Positions 18,266-33,895 of a stretch of DNA of 64,000 bases are shown piece by piece. The notes under the pieces are model-generated. The model saw only the letters and a program-made list of their open reading frames with translations. It made no database searches and had not been told where the DNA came from. The position numbers were made by a program, and so were the translations under genes. Every line of letters begins with the position of its first letter. The stretch's first letter is position 1. Source of the stretch: Flavobacteriaceae bacterium (GTDB taxonomy: Bacteria; Bacteroidota; Bacteroidia; Flavobacteriales; Flavobacteriaceae); contig JAGYJA010000007.1 in NCBI GenBank assembly GCA_018402385.1, positions 62,001-126,000 of the forward strand, read 5' to 3'.

Positions 18266-18829
18266 CTAATTTTTTAACCAATTTTCGAGAATTTGACTAC
18301 CTAAAGGTGTCAAAATGGATTCAGGATGATATTGTACCCCTTTTATATCCAAAAATCTGTGTTTGAAACTCATAACGTTTCCAAAATCATCAACAGAAGT
18401 AACCTCAAGTGCTTCTGGCAGAGGATTTACGGCCACCCAGGAATGATAATGACCAATTTCAAAAGACTCAGGAAGGTATTTAAATAAATAATCGTCAGAT
18501 ACAATTTTAACCCGGGTAGAAACACCGTGCAATGGAAGCTCTAAATTCATAAGTGCCCCTCCAAAATGTTCAACAATCGCTTGATGCCCCAAACAAACAC
18601 CTAAAATGCTTTTTGAAAATGCATATTCGTTTAAAAGCTGAGGCATCAATCCGGCATCTTTTGGTAGTCCCGGACCAGGAGAAAGGACAATTTTGTCAAA
18701 ACGGTTGACACTTTCTAAATCCAATTCGTCATTTTTAATCACCGTGATTTTAGCAAGATTGAACGCATCAAGCAGGTGAACGATGTTGTACACAAAAGAG
18801 TCGTGGTTGTCAATAACAAGTATGTTCAT
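18266..18829 (-). CDS. Anthranilate/aminodeoxychorismate synthase glutaminase subunit
   Basis: A 187-residue class I glutamine amidotransferase: nucleophile Cys in LGVCLGHQAI (~80), His and Glu in GVQYHPESI (~168), and NHDSFVYNI near the start. It releases ammonia from glutamine for the chorismate-using partner TrpE or PabB, which is not in this window; TrpG and PabA cannot be separated by sequence alone. It lies 69 bp downstream of hisIE in the same orientation and could be read through from the his operon. Confidence 0.85.
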   Translation of the reverse strand: MNILVIDNHDSFVYNIVHLLDAFNLAKITVIKNDELDLESVNRFDKIVLSPGPGLPKDAGLMPQLLNEYAFSKSILGVCLGHQAIVEHFGGALMNLELPLHGVSTRVKIVSDDYLFKYLPESFEIGHYHSWVAVNPLPEALEVTSVDDFGNVMSFKHRFLDIKGVQYHPESILTPLGSQILENWLKN

Positions 18830-18898: not shown

Positions 18899-19486
18899 TT
18901 ACTTAGCCCTCAATTTGAGTACTTGTTCAATATTTTCCAATGAAAATCCTTTCGCCTTCAGCAAAATCAAGTAGTGAAAAAGTAAATCGGCTGCTTCATT
19001 TTTAAACAATTCATCGTTGGAGTCTTTGGCCTCTATAATCAATTCTACAGCTTCTTCACCCACTTTTTGGGCGACTTTATTGATGCCTTTTTGCATTAAA
19101 TCCCGAGTGTATGATTTCTCATCACCACTTTCCACGCGCTTTTGAATGGTTTGTTCCAATTGGTAAAGAAATCCTTTGGCGGTTTCTTCGTTAAAACAAG
19201 TTGTGCTCCCGGTGTGGCAGGTGGGTCCCATTGGCTCGGCTTTAATGAGCAGAGTGTCCTGATCACAATCAATTAAAATTTCTTTGACCAATAAAAAAAT
19301 ACCGGATGTTTCACCCTTGGTCCACAAGCGGTTTTTACTTCTGCTGAAAAAAGTCACTTTGCCTTCAGTCTTGGTTTTTGCGTAGGCTTCTTCATTCATA
19401 TAACCAAGCATCAATACCTGACTGCTGGCAAAATCCTGAATGATGACCGGCACCAGGCCGTTTGTTTTTGAAAAATCTATAGACAT
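18899..19486 (-). CDS. hisI: HisIE: phosphoribosyl-AMP cyclohydrolase/phosphoribosyl-ATP pyrophosphatase
   Basis: The 195-residue fusion has the cyclohydrolase domain ([25 protein letters not shown]; the zinc/Mg ligands in CDQDTLL and CHTGSTTCF, to ~100) followed by the pyrophosphatase domain ([29 protein letters not shown], ~125-155). It catalyses steps 2 and 3 of histidine biosynthesis. It overlaps hisF by 10 bp and is the last his gene. Confidence 0.95.
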
Positions 19487-20235
19487 CTTACGGGTATTTT
19501 TTGAGTTTGTAAATAGGTTTTAAGCTGCGGGATGGGTATTTCTCCAAAGTGAAAAATACTTGCCGCCAGTGCAGCACCGGCTTTGGTTTTCTGAAAAACT
19601 TCCTTAAAATGAGCCATCGTCCCTGCCCCACCCGAAGCAATCACCGGAATGTTGACTACCTCACTTATAGTGTTTGTGATTTCGATAGCAAAACCATTTT
19701 TAGTTCCGTCGTTATTCATGGAGGTGAGCAAGATTTCGCCTGCACCGCGACGCTCTGCTTCCAATGCCCATTCCACTGCATCGAGATCTGTGGGTATTTT
19801 ACCACCATGACTGAATACTTTCCAGTTTCCATTGGTGTTTTTTACATCCATAGCAAGTACCACACATTGATTGCCAAAATAATTAGAAATATCAGTAATT
19901 AACTGGGGGTTTTTAATGGCAGCACTGTTGATGCTCACTTTATCGGCACCCGCAAGAATGACGGCTTTGGCGTCTTCCAACGAGTTAATCCCACCACCCA
20001 CAGTAAACGGAATATTAATAGCCGAAGCAATTTGAGTAACCAATTCCACCAGTGTCTTTCTCTTTTCAAGTGTTGCGGTAATATCGAGAAAAACGAGTTC
20101 GTCTGCACCTTCTTCTACATACCTTTTAGCAAGTTCAATAGGATCACCCGCATCACGGATATCCAAAAAATTAACGCCTTTAACGGTCCTGCCGTTGGCG
20201 ATATCCAGACAGGGTATGATTCTCTTTTTTAGCAT
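19477..20235 (-). CDS. hisF: Imidazole glycerol phosphate synthase cyclase subunit HisF
   Basis: A 252-residue (beta/alpha)8 barrel starting [23 protein letters not shown]; catalytic Asp residues lie in CLDIANG (Asp11) and AMDVKNTNG (~130), phosphate-binding loops in FTVGGGI and VIASGGAG. With HisH it converts PRFAR to imidazole glycerol phosphate and AICAR. It overlaps hisA by 7 bp and hisIE by 10 bp. Confidence 0.96.
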
Positions 20236-20942
20236 AGTTTCTCTAATTCTTTTAAAGTGATTCTTCCTTCATAAATCGCTTTTCCTAATATCACACCGGT
20301 GCAACCCAGTTCGCGGAGTTTTATCAGGTCATCAAACTCTGAAACACCTCCGCTGGCGATGAGATTTATATTGGTTTCTTTTAAAATTTCTTTATATAAT
20401 TCAAAAGAAGGCCCTTGAAGCATCCCGTCTTTGGAAATGTCAGTACAAATTACTTGTTGGATGCCTTTGGATTCATAATTTTTAATAAATTCAATCACAT
20501 CGAGTGTTGAAGTTTCTTTCCATCCGTGGATAGCAATTTTTCGGTTTTGGGCGTCTGCACCTAAAATGATTTTATCTGCACCATACATTTGCAGCCAATT
20601 TTCAAAAATAGCGGGTTCACTTACTGCAATACTCCCCCCTGTAATCTGATGAGCGCCGTTTTCGAAAGCAATTTTAAGGTCAGCATCCGTTTTTAAACCG
20701 CCGCCAAAATCGATTTTTAAATTAGTTTGCGAGGCAATTTGATAGAGTACCTTGTGATTGACAATGTGTTTTGACCGGGCCCCGTCAAGATCGACGAGAT
20801 GCAGGTATTGGACACCGTGATCTTCAAATGATTTGGCGACTTCCAGTGGGTGCTCGCTATACGTTTTCTGCGTGTCGTAATCACCTTTGGTGAGTCGCAC
20901 ACATTTTCCGTTGATGATGTCTATAGCTGGAGTTACTCTCAT
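20229..20942 (-). CDS. hisA: ProFAR isomerase HisA
   Basis: The 237-residue barrel begins [22 protein letters not shown] (catalytic Asp8) and has [14 protein letters not shown] and [20 protein letters not shown] with the second catalytic Asp (~127-130). It isomerises ProFAR to PRFAR, the substrate of HisHF. It overlaps hisH by 4 bp (ATGA) and hisF by 7 bp. Confidence 0.96.
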
Positions 20943-21517
20943 ATCTCTAGGAAATTTTTAAGTATGCGCTCCCCCACTCCGGCTGATTTCTCCGGGTGAA
21001 ATTGGGTGGCATAAAAGTTATTTTTTTGCATGGCTGCACTGAAATCAATTCCGTAATTACAGATAGCTTTGGTATCCTGTGAAACTTCCGCATAATAACT
21101 GTGCACAAAATACACATCATCAGCTGCTGAAATGCCTTTTAGCAAAGGACTATCTTTGACTTCCAAAACATTCCAACCCATATGCGGAACGATTAGATTA
21201 TTGGGAAATCGCTTCACTTTAGCATCAAAAATTCCGATGCAGGTAGTATCATTTTCTTTACTGTGTTTACAGAGCAATTGCAATCCCAAACAAATCCCCA
21301 AAACAGGCTGTTTTAGTGAGAGGATTAAAGTGTCCAATTGGTGTTCTTTAATATAAGCCATTGCGGTGCTCGCCTCGCCCACTCCGGGAAAAATTACTTT
21401 TTCTGCACTTTTTATAATTTCCGGGTCATCTGAAACTACACAAGGATATCCGAGTCGTTCCACAGCATTTTTTACTGAAGTGGTGTTCCCTGCGTTGTAT
21501 TTTAATATAGCAATCAT
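20939..21517 (-). CDS. hisH: Imidazole glycerol phosphate synthase glutaminase subunit HisH
   Basis: A 192-residue class I amidotransferase: [29 protein letters not shown], nucleophile Cys in [10 protein letters not shown] (~77) and the His-Glu pair in ATQFHPEKS (~173). It supplies ammonia to HisF. It overlaps hisB by 4 bp and hisA by 4 bp. Confidence 0.96.
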
Positions 21518-22071
21518 AAAGTTCCTTTTGTACTGGGTATGGAATAGTTTTCGGTTTTTGAGACGGCGGATTGAATCGCTTTCGCGAACCCCTTGAAAAT
21601 CGATTCAATTTTGTGGTGTTCATTTTCACCTTCGGCTTTGATGTTCAGGTTGCATTTGGCATGGTCGCTGAAGGATTTGAAAAAGTGCATAAACATTTCA
21701 GTGGGCATCTCGCCTATTTTTTCCCGTTTAAAATTGGCTTCCCAAACCAACCAGGGTCTTCCTCCAAAATCGATGGCTACCTGTGCCAGACAGTCATCCA
21801 TTGGCAATAAAAATCCATAACGGGTGATGCCTTTTTTGGAACCTAAAGCTTTTAAAAATGCTTTCCCAAACGTGATGGCGACATCTTCAATGGTGTGATG
21901 CTCATCAATATGCAAGTCGCCTTGAACCGCAATGTCCAGATCGATATTCCCATGCTTGGCGATTTGCTCCAGCATATGGTCAAAAAATCCAAGTCCGGTG
22001 TGGATGCTACTTTTACCTGAACCATCGAGGTTAACAGTGACACTTACTTGTGTTTCATTGGTGGTGCGCAT
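21514..22071 (-). CDS. hisB: Imidazoleglycerol-phosphate dehydratase (HisB C-terminal half)
   Basis: The 185-residue dehydratase domain has the metal-binding motifs [13 protein letters not shown] and [14 protein letters not shown], and later [14 protein letters not shown]. It makes imidazole acetol phosphate. In Flavobacteriia HisB is normally one bifunctional chain with an N-terminal histidinol phosphatase. Here that half is in another frame just upstream, and the region 22072-22099 read in this frame encodes [11 protein letters not shown], the conserved linker, joined directly to MRTTNET. The ATG used as start is therefore probably an internal Met of a frameshifted fusion gene. Confidence 0.92.
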
Positions 22072-22097
22072 AACGGTTTCCTTTCGCGGCAGCGCTT

Positions 22098-22604
22098 TTA
22101 AAAAGTGAATATCTCTTTCCAGGAAGTGGTGGTTAAAGTTGCCTCGGGGTTTATATCGATCCCAATAAAAATGGCTTTACAGCCGAGGTTTTTTGCCAGT
22201 TGTACATCTGTATTTCGGTCACCAATCACATAGGAATTTTCTAAATCATAATTTCCTTTGATATAATGTGTTAGCAAAGCCGTTCCCGGTTTTCTAGTGG
22301 GTGCATTCTCTTCAGGAAACGATTTGTCAATGAGTATTTCCGAAAAACGTACTCCTTCATTTTCAAACGCCTCAATAATTTTATTTTGTGCCGGCCAAAA
22401 GGTTTCCTCGGGAAAAGAAGTTGTGCCTAATCCATCCTGATTAGTTACCATCACCAATTCAAAGTCTAGTTCTGTGGCGATGCGGGCTAAATACTGAAAC
22501 ACCCCGGGGTAAAACTGTAGTTTTTCAAGGCTGTCCAATTGAAAATCAATGGGTGGTTCTATGACAAGTGTACCGTCACGGTCTATAAATAGGACTTTTT
22601 TCAT
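22098..22604 (-). CDS. hisB: Histidinol-phosphatase (HisB N-terminal half), terminated by frameshift
   Basis: The 168-residue HAD phosphatase has motif I FIDRDGTL (~5-12), motif [10 protein letters not shown] (~52), and motif [20 protein letters not shown] (~133-149). It dephosphorylates histidinol phosphate. The frame ends at TAA within ACTTTTTAAAAG; adding one T (T5 to T6 at 22100-22104) continues as ...[24 protein letters not shown] into the dehydratase half. The pair should be read as one hisB gene of about 363 codons with one frameshift, unless experiment shows two separate proteins. Confidence 0.9.
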
Positions 22605-22606
22605 TT

Positions 22607-23626
22607 TTAAAGGTTTTTAAGTTCGTTGATCAATTGATTATTTTCTTCAGGAGTGCCAATAGTGATGCGCACACAGTTTTTGATGACGCTGTCCCTGTTT
22701 CTGATGATGATGTTTTTCTCAACCAGTTTGTTGTAAACCAAATGGGCATCTTTTACTTCAACCAATAGAAAATTTGCGTCTGATGGATAAATTTTAATGA
22801 CCTGATTCAGATGCATAAGGGCTTTATAAACTCGTTTTCTTTCTTTGTATATCATGGTGAGATGTCTTCGTGTGGTTTCGTGGTTTTTAAGTGCTTTCAG
22901 TGCTGCTTTTTGATTGAGTGTGCTCACGTTATAAGGCGGTTTTACTTTATTCATCAACTCGATGATGGTTTCACCGGCATAGGCCACTCCTACTCTTGCT
23001 GCTGCCAAACCAAGTGATTTGCTAAAAGTCTGCAAGACAATTAAATTGGAGTAATTCAATAATTTTCCAAGAAGTGAAGGACTCCCTGAAAAGTCAACAT
23101 AGGCTTCATCGACAACCACAATGGCATTGCATTTAAGTAACTTTTCAATGTTTTTAATGCTGTTTCCTGTGGGGTTATTTGGCGAGCACACAAACACAAT
23201 TTTAATATTTTGATTTTCCTCTGTTTGACGATAAAACTCTTTAAAGTCAATCTGAAAATCTGTTGTCAAGGGTACAGTGATTACCTCTACATTATTAATA
23301 CCCGCCGATACTTCATACATGCCATAGGTGGGCGGAAACGTAATGACTTTGTCCTTTCCCGGCTCACAAAAAATGCGAAAAACGAGGTCGATGATTTCAT
23401 CACTTCCGTTTCCGATAAAGATGTTTTTGGAAGGAATGTCTTTAAGCTGACTCAATTTTTCTTTCAATGCTTTTTGATACGGATCCGGATAACGATTGAA
23501 TTCGCCAAACGGATTTTCATTGGCATCCAGAAAAACACCTTCTGAACCGCTAAACTCGTCACGCGCACTGGAATAAGGCTTCAGCGCACGGATGTTTTCT
23601 CTTACTAAACTTTCTAACCTATTCAT
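22607..23626 (-). CDS. hisC: Histidinol-phosphate aminotransferase HisC
   Basis: A 339-residue fold-type I PLP enzyme: [19 protein letters not shown] (~32-50), [13 protein letters not shown] (~70), CSPNNPTGN (~150), [12 protein letters not shown] (~175) and the PLP lysine in [15 protein letters not shown] (~203). It transaminates imidazole acetol phosphate with glutamate. It overlaps hisD by 8 bp and is 2 bp from the phosphatase half of hisB. Confidence 0.95.
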
Positions 23627-24908
23627 TTTGTAAAGCTTTAAGTCTTAGGGTAACCGCATTTTTGTGCGCCTCAAGTTCTTCTGCCGCAGCCATTAATTCG
23701 ATTGCAGGTCCAATGTTTTTAATTCCCTGAGCGCTGAGTTCCTGAAAGGTGATTTTCTTTACAAAACTGTCCAGGGAAACCCCGCTGTAATTGCGGGCAT
23801 AGCCGTTTGTGGGTAAGGTGTGGTTGGTTCCGCTGGCATAATCGCCGGCGCTTTCACAACTGAAATTTCCGAGAAAAACAGAACCTGCATTTGAAATTTT
23901 TGGAATGACTTCATTGTAATTTTCAATCGCTAGAATCAAATGTTCAGGGGCATATTGATTGCTAAAGGTGATACATTCGGTTATTGACTTTAATAAAATG
24001 GCTTTGCTACTCAAGAGAGCCTCTTCAGCCATATGCTTTCGCGGAAGCGCTTCCAGTTGGATGGTGATTTCTTCAAGCACAATATCGATTATTTTTTCAT
24101 TATCAGAAAGCAACATCACTTGACTGTCTGTGCCGTGTTCTGCTTGGGAGAGTAAGTCGGCTGCGACAAAGGCGGGAACGGCGGTAGCATCTGCAATGAT
24201 CAAAACTTCACTAGGTCCGGCGGGCATATCGATGGCGACGCCGAAATTTTGAGCCATTTGCTTGGCCGCAGTGACATATTGATTTCCAGGGCCAAAGATT
24301 TTATCTACTTTGGGAATGCTTTCTGTTCCAAACGTCATCGCACCAATGGCCTGAATGCCACCCACTTTGAAGAGATTTGTAATTCCTATGAGTTGGGCGG
24401 TATATACAATTGCGGGATGAATGTTTCCGTTTTTATCGGGTGGAGTGCATAGTACAATTTCGGTGCAACCGGCAATCTTTGCGGGTATTCCCAGCATCAT
24501 AACTGTTGAAAATAGTGGCGCCGTTCCTCCCGGAATATAAATCCCTACTCGTTCAATGGGCCTGCTTTCACGCCAGCATATTACTCCGGGAGTTGTCTCT
24601 GTTTTTTGAGCTTTTTCAATTTGTGTTTTGTGAAAAACTTCTATGTTTACAGCCGCTTGTTGTATGGCTTTTTTTAAATCATTTGGAACATCTGTAGTTG
24701 CAATTTGAATCTCACCTTCAGAGACTTTAAGTTGATCTAACTCCACGGAATCAAATAAGTTAGTGTATGATTTCACACTTTCATCGCCATTGTTTTGAAT
24801 GGCTTGAAACACTTTATGAACAGTATCTGAAATGGATGCATTTTCTATTAATGGGCGCTTTGATAATTCAGGCCAGCTTTCAGGATTGGGAAATTCTATT
24901 TTTTTCAT
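23619..24908 (-). CDS. hisD: Histidinol dehydrogenase HisD
   Basis: I place the start at the ATG at 24908 (MKKIEFPNPESWPELSKRP), 13 bp after the hisG stop; longer reading would run into hisG. The 429-residue enzyme has ERVGIYIPGGTAPLFS, MPAGPSEVLIIAD, the zinc-site QAEHGTDSQ and NHTLPTNGYARNYSGVSLDSF. It oxidises histidinol to histidine in two NAD+-dependent steps, the last of the pathway. Confidence 0.95.
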   Translation of the reverse strand: MKKIEFPNPESWPELSKRPLIENASISDTVHKVFQAIQNNGDESVKSYTNLFDSVELDQLKVSEGEIQIATTDVPNDLKKAIQQAAVNIEVFHKTQIEKAQKTETTPGVICWRESRPIERVGIYIPGGTAPLFSTVMMLGIPAKIAGCTEIVLCTPPDKNGNIHPAIVYTAQLIGITNLFKVGGIQAIGAMTFGTESIPKVDKIFGPGNQYVTAAKQMAQNFGVAIDMPAGPSEVLIIADATAVPAFVAADLLSQAEHGTDSQVMLLSDNEKIIDIVLEEITIQLEALPRKHMAEEALLSSKAILLKSITECITFSNQYAPEHLILAIENYNEVIPKISNAGSVFLGNFSCESAGDYASGTNHTLPTNGYARNYSGVSLDSFVKKITFQELSAQGIKNIGPAIELMAAAEELEAHKNAVTLRLKALQNE

Positions 24909-24921
24909 TTTTATAATTGTA

Positions 24922-25779
24922 TTAAAGAACCATTTTTTCAATAGGTACGACAAGAATCCCTTCTGCACCGTGGGCTTTCAACTGGTCAATGACATCCCAG
25001 AATTCATCTTCTTTTACCACTGAATGTAAACTGCACCATTCCTTATTAGCCAGTGGTAAAATGGTGGGTGATTTCATTCCGGGTATTATTTTTGTTATTT
25101 GATCGAGGGATTTTATGGGACAGTTGAGGAGTATGTATTTATTGCCATTTCCGTTTTGAACGGCCTGAAATCTGAAAAGAAGACGGTCGAGGATTTGTTG
25201 TTTTTCTGTGCTAAGCGCAGTATTGGAAATCAAAACAGCTTCACTTTTGGTCACAACTTCCACCTCTTTGAGTCCGTTCATCAAAAGAGTGCTTCCGGTG
25301 CTGACGATGTCAAAAACGGCATCAGCCAGGCCAATTCCTGTGGCGATTTCAACACTGCCACCTATTTCTTCGATTTCGACAATTATGCTTTTAGAATCAA
25401 AATACTTTTGGAGGATGATGGGATAAGAAGTGGCAATGCGTTTTCCGGAAAAATACTGAATGTCTTTATAAAATTCATCTTTGGGAATGGCGAGTGACAT
25501 TTTGCAATTGGCAAAACCCAGTTTTGAAATAACTATTACTTTTTTGTCCTTTTCCCAGACTTCATTTTCTCCAAGAATACCAATATCTGCAACGCCCTGT
25601 TCCACATACTGGGGAATGTCATCATCACGTAGAAAGAGGATTTCGATAGGAAAATTTGAAGACTCGGCTTTGAGTTTTCTTTCGCCATTTGAGATCTTAA
25701 TTCCACATTCTTGAATGAGTTTGATGGACTTTTCGCTTAAGCGACCACTTTTTTGGATGGCAATTTTTAGTTTACTCAT
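24922..25779 (-). CDS. hisG: ATP phosphoribosyltransferase HisG (long form)
   Basis: The 285-residue protein is the long HisG type with a C-terminal regulatory ACT-like domain (TILPLANKEWCSLHSVV ... GAEGILVVPIEKMVL). The catalytic part has KLKIAIQKSGRLSEKS, VADIGILGENEVWE and the PRPP-binding FDIVSTGSTLLMNGL (~165-180). It commits ATP and PRPP to histidine synthesis and is usually feedback-inhibited by histidine. It is the first structural gene after the leader/attenuator. Confidence 0.95.
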   Translation of the reverse strand: MSKLKIAIQKSGRLSEKSIKLIQECGIKISNGERKLKAESSNFPIEILFLRDDDIPQYVEQGVADIGILGENEVWEKDKKVIVISKLGFANCKMSLAIPKDEFYKDIQYFSGKRIATSYPIILQKYFDSKSIIVEIEEIGGSVEIATGIGLADAVFDIVSTGSTLLMNGLKEVEVVTKSEAVLISNTALSTEKQQILDRLLFRFQAVQNGNGNKYILLNCPIKSLDQITKIIPGMKSPTILPLANKEWCSLHSVVKEDEFWDVIDQLKAHGAEGILVVPIEKMVL

Positions 25780-25821
25780 AGTTTTTAATTAGTGTCTGAG
25801 TAAAACCAAAAGGGAAGTCAT

Positions 25822-25855
25822 AAAAAAACCCGTCAGAGATACTCAGACGGGTTTT
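25822..25855 (-). terminator. Histidine operon attenuator hairpin
   Basis: On the minus strand AAAACCCGTC and GACGGGTTTT pair, with an internal GAG/CTC extension separated by a single mismatch and a TAT loop, followed by a run of seven T. It lies between the leader peptide stop (25887) and hisG (25779), the position expected for a transcription attenuator. Confidence 0.88.
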
Positions 25856-25886
25856 AAATTTTATGTTCAATCGCTACATAGAATCA

Positions 25887-25940
25887 TCAGCTCGCCTGTT
25901 GGCCAGAATGATGATGGTGATGCAGTGTGATGAAATTCAT
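25887..25940 (-). CDS. hisL: Histidine operon leader peptide
   Basis: A 17-codon frame encodes MNFITLHHHHHSGQQAS with five consecutive His codons (CAT CAC CAT CAT CAT) and ends at TGA 31 bp before the attenuator hairpin. Ribosome stalling at the His codons when charged tRNA-His is scarce would be expected to favour an antiterminator and let transcription reach hisG, as established for the enteric his operon. The competing antiterminator fold was not worked out. A TATATTTG -7 box lies 20 bp upstream of the ATG. Confidence 0.88.
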   Translation of the reverse strand: MNFITLHHHHHSGQQAS

Positions 25941-25959
25941 TTCTTGAATATTGATGAGG

Positions 25960-25967
25960 CAAATATA
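25960..25967 (-). promoter_or_regulatory. Candidate -7 box of the histidine operon
   Basis: The minus strand reads TATATTTG (TAnnTTTG consensus), 20 bp upstream of the leader peptide ATG. No clear -33 TTG is seen. Confidence 0.5.
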
Positions 25968-33820: not shown

Positions 33821-33895
33821 GGTGGTTGTAGCTCAGTTGGTTAGAGCGCTAGATTGTGGTTCTAGAGGTCGCCGGTTCGAGACCGGTCTTCCACC
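33821..33895 (+). tRNA. tRNA-His (anticodon GTG)
   Basis: The cloverleaf is clear: D-arm GCTC/GAGC, anticodon stem CTAGA/TCTAG with loop TTGTGGT (anticodon GTG), T-arm GCCGG/CCGGT with loop TTCGAGA. The extra 5' G at 33821 (G-1) facing C73 is the tRNA-His identity element. The acceptor stem GTGGTTG/CTTCCAC contains two adjacent U-U mismatches (positions 5-68 and 6-67), which is unusual. A complete 3' CCA is not encoded. Confidence 0.93.

Follow-up and report, generated by a model that had tools for sequence, protein, structure and literature searches.

A probable histidine attenuator in Flavobacteriaceae with a conserved post-terminator strand that may also set hisG translation

The his operon of the window (the whole stretch of 64,000 nucleotides of DNA that was analysed) is preceded by a leader that we read as a histidine attenuator carrying an added post-terminator strand, hereafter the switch strand, which may also set the translation of hisG. 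We place the probability of this explanation as a whole at about 50%. Judged from aligned sequences, several Bacteroidota orders have kept both the switch strand and its ability to pair with the terminator, and both are confined to hisG. The underlying attenuator had been proposed in the original prediction, which described a his operon leader peptide and attenuator. Comparative findings discussed below support ribosome-mediated histidine attenuation as the correct reading of the region and indicate that its elements are real, since the His run, the terminator, the promoter and a competing antiterminator are conserved across the phylum. Such attenuation is no new principle; attenuation of amino-acid operons is textbook biology from enteric bacteria. 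In the Bacteroidota, whose ribosomes work without Shine-Dalgarno pairing, there has been little experimental work on attenuation. Nevertheless, peptide attenuation in this phylum is less unexplored than the original prediction held, as indicated by Rfam RF01692 and by the accessible part of one study (PMC9723704).

The operon is read from the minus strand and opens with hisG (24922..25779), which encodes ATP phosphoribosyltransferase (Pfam PF01634 HisG and PF08029 HisG_C). It continues on the same strand with hisD, hisC, an ORF, hisB (IGPD), hisH, hisA/hisF (two His_biosynth matches) and hisIE (18899..24908), which, apart from the ORF, were recognized using Pfam and either overlap or are closely spaced; the names hisC, hisH, hisA and hisF were assigned within their respective superfamilies based on gene position. 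The ORF between hisC and hisB (22098-22604, minus strand) returned no match in a Pfam search at 1e-10, and resembles the separate histidinol-phosphatase half of HisB. Directly after hisIE is a lone glutamine amidotransferase gene of the trpG/pabA type (18266-18829, minus strand). Two genomes of the same genus (G003 and G004) contain trpE with a WWW leader at a comparable distance from hisG (L123 and L124), and no full trpE match was found in the window's genome; it looks as if trpE was lost next to the lone glutamine amidotransferase. Elsewhere in the window, a tRNA gene (Rfam RF00005) is located at 33822-33895 on the plus strand. As judged by HisG, the closest named relative is Planktosalinus lacus (89% identity), which places the genome in the Flavobacteriaceae.

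Regions upstream of hisG were gathered from 30 relatives and 80 named species, yielding 108 loci after two duplicates were dropped. A -7 box about 20 bp upstream of the leader had been predicted, and one is present in the window at 25967-25960 (minus strand) as TATATTTG, conforming to the Bacteroidetes TAnnTTTG. The gap from its last base to the leader ATG is 19 nt, and transcription would start a few nt downstream of the box. The same box precedes the leader in most hisG loci: TAnnTTTG was found upstream of the leader ORF in 83/101 loci compared to 5.2 expected from shuffles, and in loci that have it the distance to the leader ATG is mostly 16-24 nt, with the bulk at 16-21 nt. A sigma-70 promoter and terminator scan of the window detected neither this Bacteroidetes promoter nor the intrinsic terminator discussed below, the hairpin of which carries a U-U mismatch in the window.

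The predicted 17-residue frame is likewise present on the minus strand. This ORF, hisL (25887..25940), consists of 17 codons plus TGA and encodes MNFITLHHHHHSGQQAS, of which the His run and the C-terminal QAR/QAS are kept in most loci. Its five consecutive His codons, CAT CAC CAT CAT CAT (25908..25922, minus strand), presumably serve as the stalling site as well as the 5' side of the pause hairpin. The hisL start lies in an A-rich context and a Shine-Dalgarno sequence is absent; the hisG start is A-rich as well, making the earlier remark on initiation in bacteria that do not rely on Shine-Dalgarno sequences an apt one. Such A-rich start contexts are known from F. johnsoniae (PMC6847099). One point on which the original prediction was to stand or fall, namely that relatives share the His run and the hairpin, was clearly borne out: an ORF containing 3 or more His codons lies upstream of hisG at 102/108 loci, and a terminator was detected at 101 of these 102, positioned 16-46 nt past the leader stop. 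Consistent with a structured leader, the fold of the leader transcript had a z of -5.2, and 0/200 shuffles were equally good. His-rich ORFs before hisG were also seen at L202-L206, L218-L220 and L224 (e.g. LHHGLHHGHHHVH), where no intrinsic terminator was detected; loci of this type perhaps use another mode of control.

Helices were scored on alignment A1, which was built with MAFFT from 65 non-redundant loci without being fitted to any structure; covariation counts are plain counts over related sequences with no tree correction. The pause (1:2) hairpin (25874..25925, minus strand), in which CTGCAT.../ATCATCATTC pairs with GATGATTCTATGTAG, was recovered in the MFE fold and among the A1 helices, and in the window it encloses the antiterminator strand. 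On A1, 65% of cells in its outer part and 79% in its inner part were paired, with two-sided changes at 8/15 pairs. The intrinsic terminator, predicted as a stable hairpin before hisG, consists of the hairpin AAACCCGUCUGAGUAUCUCUGACGGGUUU followed by a U-run (25854-25826, minus strand; -15.8 kcal/mol). Its helix was paired in 96% of cells on A1, with two-sided changes at 6/11 pairs.

A fold check for a competing antiterminator had been suggested with the original prediction, and such a structure was found, a helix between CAGGCG of the leader and CGUCUG in the arm of the terminator. The antiterminator strand ACAGGCGA (25892..25899, minus strand) lies in the last leader codons (Gln-Gln-Ala-Ser), and its partner in the terminator 5' arm is CCGUCUGA. 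Since this strand sits in the last codons of hisL, its pairing accounts for conservation of the leader C-terminus QAR/QAS. The ACAGGCGA/CCGUCUGA duplex came to -9.1 kcal/mol in the window, with a mean over loci of -12.1, and the 6 bp plus flanks found in the window extend to 8-10 bp in many relatives. Across the 65 sequences, the helix between leader CUCAGGCG and terminator CGUYUGAG was 89% paired, and on A1 it displayed 20 two-sided changed cells compared to 6.5 in shuffles. Both sides were replaced together at L006 (CTCAAG with CUUGA) and at L008 (CCACGGC with GGCUGUGG). Slid controls for the pause, terminator and antiterminator helices were each <48% paired on A1. Taken together, these findings indicate that, as far as alignment and folding can tell, a mutually exclusive antiterminator masked by a pause hairpin is present as anatomy.

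The switch strand UUUUACUCAGAC (25794..25805, minus strand) lies between the terminator and hisG, outside the coordinates covered by the original prediction. It has two alternative partners, GUCUGAGUA in the terminator and UGAGUAAA at the hisG start. GUCUGAGUA (25840..25848, minus strand) comprises the terminator 5' arm and loop, and is the strand common to the terminator, the antiterminator and the post-terminator helix; UACUCAGAC within UUUUACUCAGAC is its exact complement. At several loci the complement runs from the 5' arm through the loop and some way into the 3' arm (16 bp at L106). Across loci, the terminator core formed a far stronger duplex with the downstream segment than it did with shuffled versions of that segment (mean z -4.7), and pairing was stronger with a locus's own strand than with those of other loci (Wilcoxon p ~1e-10, uncorrected for relatedness). 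The 13 pairs of the post-terminator helix were 87.5% paired on A1, with two-sided changes at 9 pairs, and slid controls were 20-42% paired. This helix exhibited 68 doubly changed cells compared to 19.8 +/- 3.7 in shuffles, 30 further pair types compared to 23.4 +/- 1.8, and a covariation of 0.349 compared to 0.209; A1 columns 143-146 contained up to six pair types. These measures were matched in 0/500 shuffles, except for the count of doubly changed pairs (73/500). On the strength of this covariation, it appears nearly certain that the switch strand pairs with the terminator.

The many G-U intermediates indicate that the post-terminator helix is formed in RNA rather than being a DNA palindrome; a palindrome serving as a protein operator was ruled out by the variable spacing of the arms together with the many changes that proceed via G-U. 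Likewise, the switch strand is made only once the terminator has been transcribed, an order that ruled out a role in termination itself. We searched 296 genomes of the class with a covariance model of the post-terminator helix, and all 24 matches scoring at least 39 bits directly precede hisG; those of the weaker matches that were inspected were ordinary terminators. Leaders of other amino-acid operons in relatives gave a different result. No post-terminator complement was found where it was looked for in the trpE (WWW), ilvD (VVV, III) and pheA (FYFYFFF) leaders, although these do carry terminators, which for trpE and pheA lie near the gene. The idea that trp, ilv and phe leaders carry the same element was therefore rejected. 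Loci of homoserine dehydrogenase, most of which stop short of the gene start, were left out of this comparison. In more distant families, His leader ORFs and a terminator were present but the switch strand was absent; based on this pattern of presence and absence, rather than on a tree, the switch strand appears to have been added in one part of the phylum.

In roughly half of the loci, the window among them, the switch strand has a second partner in the hisG start (AUGAGUAAA), which in the window is UGAGUAAA (25771..25778, minus strand). Among the 50 gene starts of the window, only that of hisG begins ATGAGTAAA, and it is also the best partner for the switch strand. The start helix was 82% paired, while its covariation alone was marginal (18/500 shuffles). 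In the AGTAAA class, in which hisG starts with ATGAGTAAA, pairing with the own start was -10.9 kcal/mol compared to -6.8 kcal/mol with foreign starts. In contrast, the ATGGAA and ATGACA classes displayed no own-start effect, though the terminator helix was retained in many of them. Predicted openness of the start in the AGTAAA class was 0.31 with the terminator formed, compared to 0.66 with the alternative helix; in passing from the former to the latter, the start opened by >0.3 in 35/71 loci and closed by as much in none. When the antiterminator strand was included and the terminator pairs were penalised, openness rose only modestly, from 0.32 to 0.46, with no change in the other classes. For read-through RNA, the predictions gave an alternative fold that occludes the start in loci of the AGTAAA and AGTAC classes, but not in others.

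Secondary structure around the start is known to tune initiation in F. johnsoniae (PMC6847099), and the predicted folds make start-codon gating plausible in the window's own clade. An effect of the switch strand on hisG translation would concern only those clades in which hisG begins AUGAGUA, and we propose it tentatively, at somewhat less than an even chance. The terminator helix is often retained in AUGGAA and AUGACA clades despite a lack of start pairing; start sequestration is therefore not its sole role, and these clades ruled out sequestration of the start codon as a universal function. The switch strand may thus have a second function, such as in stability or as a lock on read-through.

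Based on these results, we propose the following mechanism. RNA polymerase would start just upstream of hisL, and a ribosome would translate the leader. With ample His-tRNA, the ribosome at the stop codon would cover CAGGCG, or the pause hairpin would mask it, so that the terminator forms and transcription ends before hisG. Upon His shortage, the ribosome would instead stall at the His codons, allowing CAGGCG to pair with the terminator 5' arm and leading to read-through. These steps are very probable: the anatomy and pairing were observed in the leaders, and the response to His is taken over from established attenuation. Past the terminator, the UUUUACUCAGAC strand would be transcribed. Under rich conditions with leaky read-through, the terminator hairpin would stand, and UUUUACUCAGAC could pair with the hisG start codon and damp translation; under starvation, with no hairpin, UUUUACUCAGAC would pair with the free GUCUGAGUA arm, which would open the hisG start and block re-formation of the terminator. 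In the full read-through RNA, the terminator was the minimum-energy fold in 88/101 loci, and this last step would therefore need kinetic control. One leader-peptide switch could thus have two outputs in bacteria that do without Shine-Dalgarno sequences, with the terminator both stopping transcription and deciding whether the hisG start is hidden, its loop mimicking the hisG start region (UGAGUAAA); we regard this joint proposal as possible, though short of probable.

The alternative that survives best, which we nonetheless consider unlikely, is plain His attenuation in which the long hairpin formed between switch strand and arm upon read-through protects or positions the hisG 5' end, the start codon being irrelevant. 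Retention of the post-terminator helix in clades lacking start-codon pairing is what this would lead one to expect, as is the position of the helix end, which in most loci falls ~15-25 nt before hisG. However, a protective hairpin could do without the terminator's own arm as its partner, and the strong covariation with that arm suggests that exclusivity with respect to the terminator matters. We likewise considered whether the switch strand acts as a lock that captures the 5' arm from the antiterminator once read-through has occurred. This would keep the terminator from re-forming as the stalled ribosome proceeds, and hisG translation would be affected only indirectly. The post-terminator duplex, often at -20 kcal/mol, is indeed stronger than that of the antiterminator, and ~12 pairs of the post-terminator helix formed once the terminator pairs were excluded; but a terminator hairpin re-formed ~45 nt upstream of hisG would have no evident consequence, and trp and phe leaders work without a switch strand, making a lock improbable as the whole account.

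Attenuator RNAs that act in trans occur in other bacteria, and the terminator loop and the switch strand are complementary, such that the terminated leader RNA might act as an sRNA, using its terminator loop to bind the switch strand on other hisG mRNAs. Because the complement includes part of the stem, where the terminated RNA is already paired, and because pairing under rich conditions would free the hisG start, which is the wrong direction, we regard this as highly improbable. Finally, that there is no attenuation and that a chance His-rich ORF lies next to the ordinary terminator of an upstream transcript can practically be dismissed: nothing was found in its favour, it is contradicted by the alignment, in which the ORF, the promoter, the antiterminator and the terminator are conserved throughout the phylum, and the gene upstream of the his leader is divergent.

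Returning to an attenuator with an added switch strand, the alignment provides a test bed that combines a conserved leader, antiterminator and terminator with a covarying third partner of the arm. If the switch strand gates the hisG start, then leader-peptide attenuators of biosynthetic operons can control translation as well, and in bacteria without Shine-Dalgarno sequences it could be the start codon itself that is hidden. Other operons of the relatives (L111-L127, L136-L146 and L175-L190) have leaders with runs of their own, namely trp (WWW), ilv (VVV/III) and phe (FYFYFFF), and these are likely peptide attenuators; one phe leader (L180) had no Rfam match at gathering score. As regards the pathways themselves, dihydroxy-acid dehydratase (ilvD) and homoserine dehydrogenase had no match in the window's genome (92.5% complete) or in four genomes of the same genus (G001-G004), and among these five prephenate dehydratase was found only in G004. 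The lineage thus probably has several amino-acid auxotrophies while mostly keeping His synthesis.

Among known systems, the enterobacterial his leader (Rfam RF00514 His_leader) likewise has a run of His codons, a pause hairpin, an antiterminator and a terminator before hisG. RF00514 matched the window over 25923-25820 with 37.4 bits (E 1e-4), below the gathering score of 49, and none of four relatives tested gave a match at gathering score. In contrast to the RF00514 system, the window's leader is without a Shine-Dalgarno sequence; its extra post-terminator strand, which pairs with the terminator, would be a further difference. Bacteroid-trp RNA (Rfam RF01692, PMC2864571) is a peptide-leader attenuator of the same phylum; the trpE leaders of two relatives reached its gathering score, while the region in the window gave no match up to E 10. 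It differs in having Trp codons, a different sequence, a terminator near trpE and no post-terminator complement.

For F. psychrophilum, the accessible part of one study reports that hisG is preceded by a conserved 5' element that is structured but has no Rfam match, together with clues for leader-peptide attenuation of amino-acid operons (PMC9723704). This 5' element is very likely the same as that of the window; the main text of that study gives no mechanism, alignment or switch strand for hisG. A literature search that lay mostly outside subscription papers likewise returned no paper describing the switch strand.

Two systems of Bacillus subtilis pair control of a terminator with control of translation. 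In the tlrB (yxjB) leader, a peptide controls a terminator, and a second structure in the read-through RNA sequesters the ribosome-binding site and start; it differs in that a macrolide is sensed, no antiterminator was identified and the target is a Shine-Dalgarno sequence (PMC6851288). In trp/TRAP, transcription is attenuated and, in addition, an alternative leader fold represses translation of the first gene, but this control is mediated by a protein, involves no leader peptide and acts by Shine-Dalgarno sequestration (PMC12288461). Set against these systems, what appears to be new here is the switch strand, a third partner for the terminator arm that, as judged by comparison of loci, is specific to hisG and covaries strongly with that arm; it would act as proposed above.
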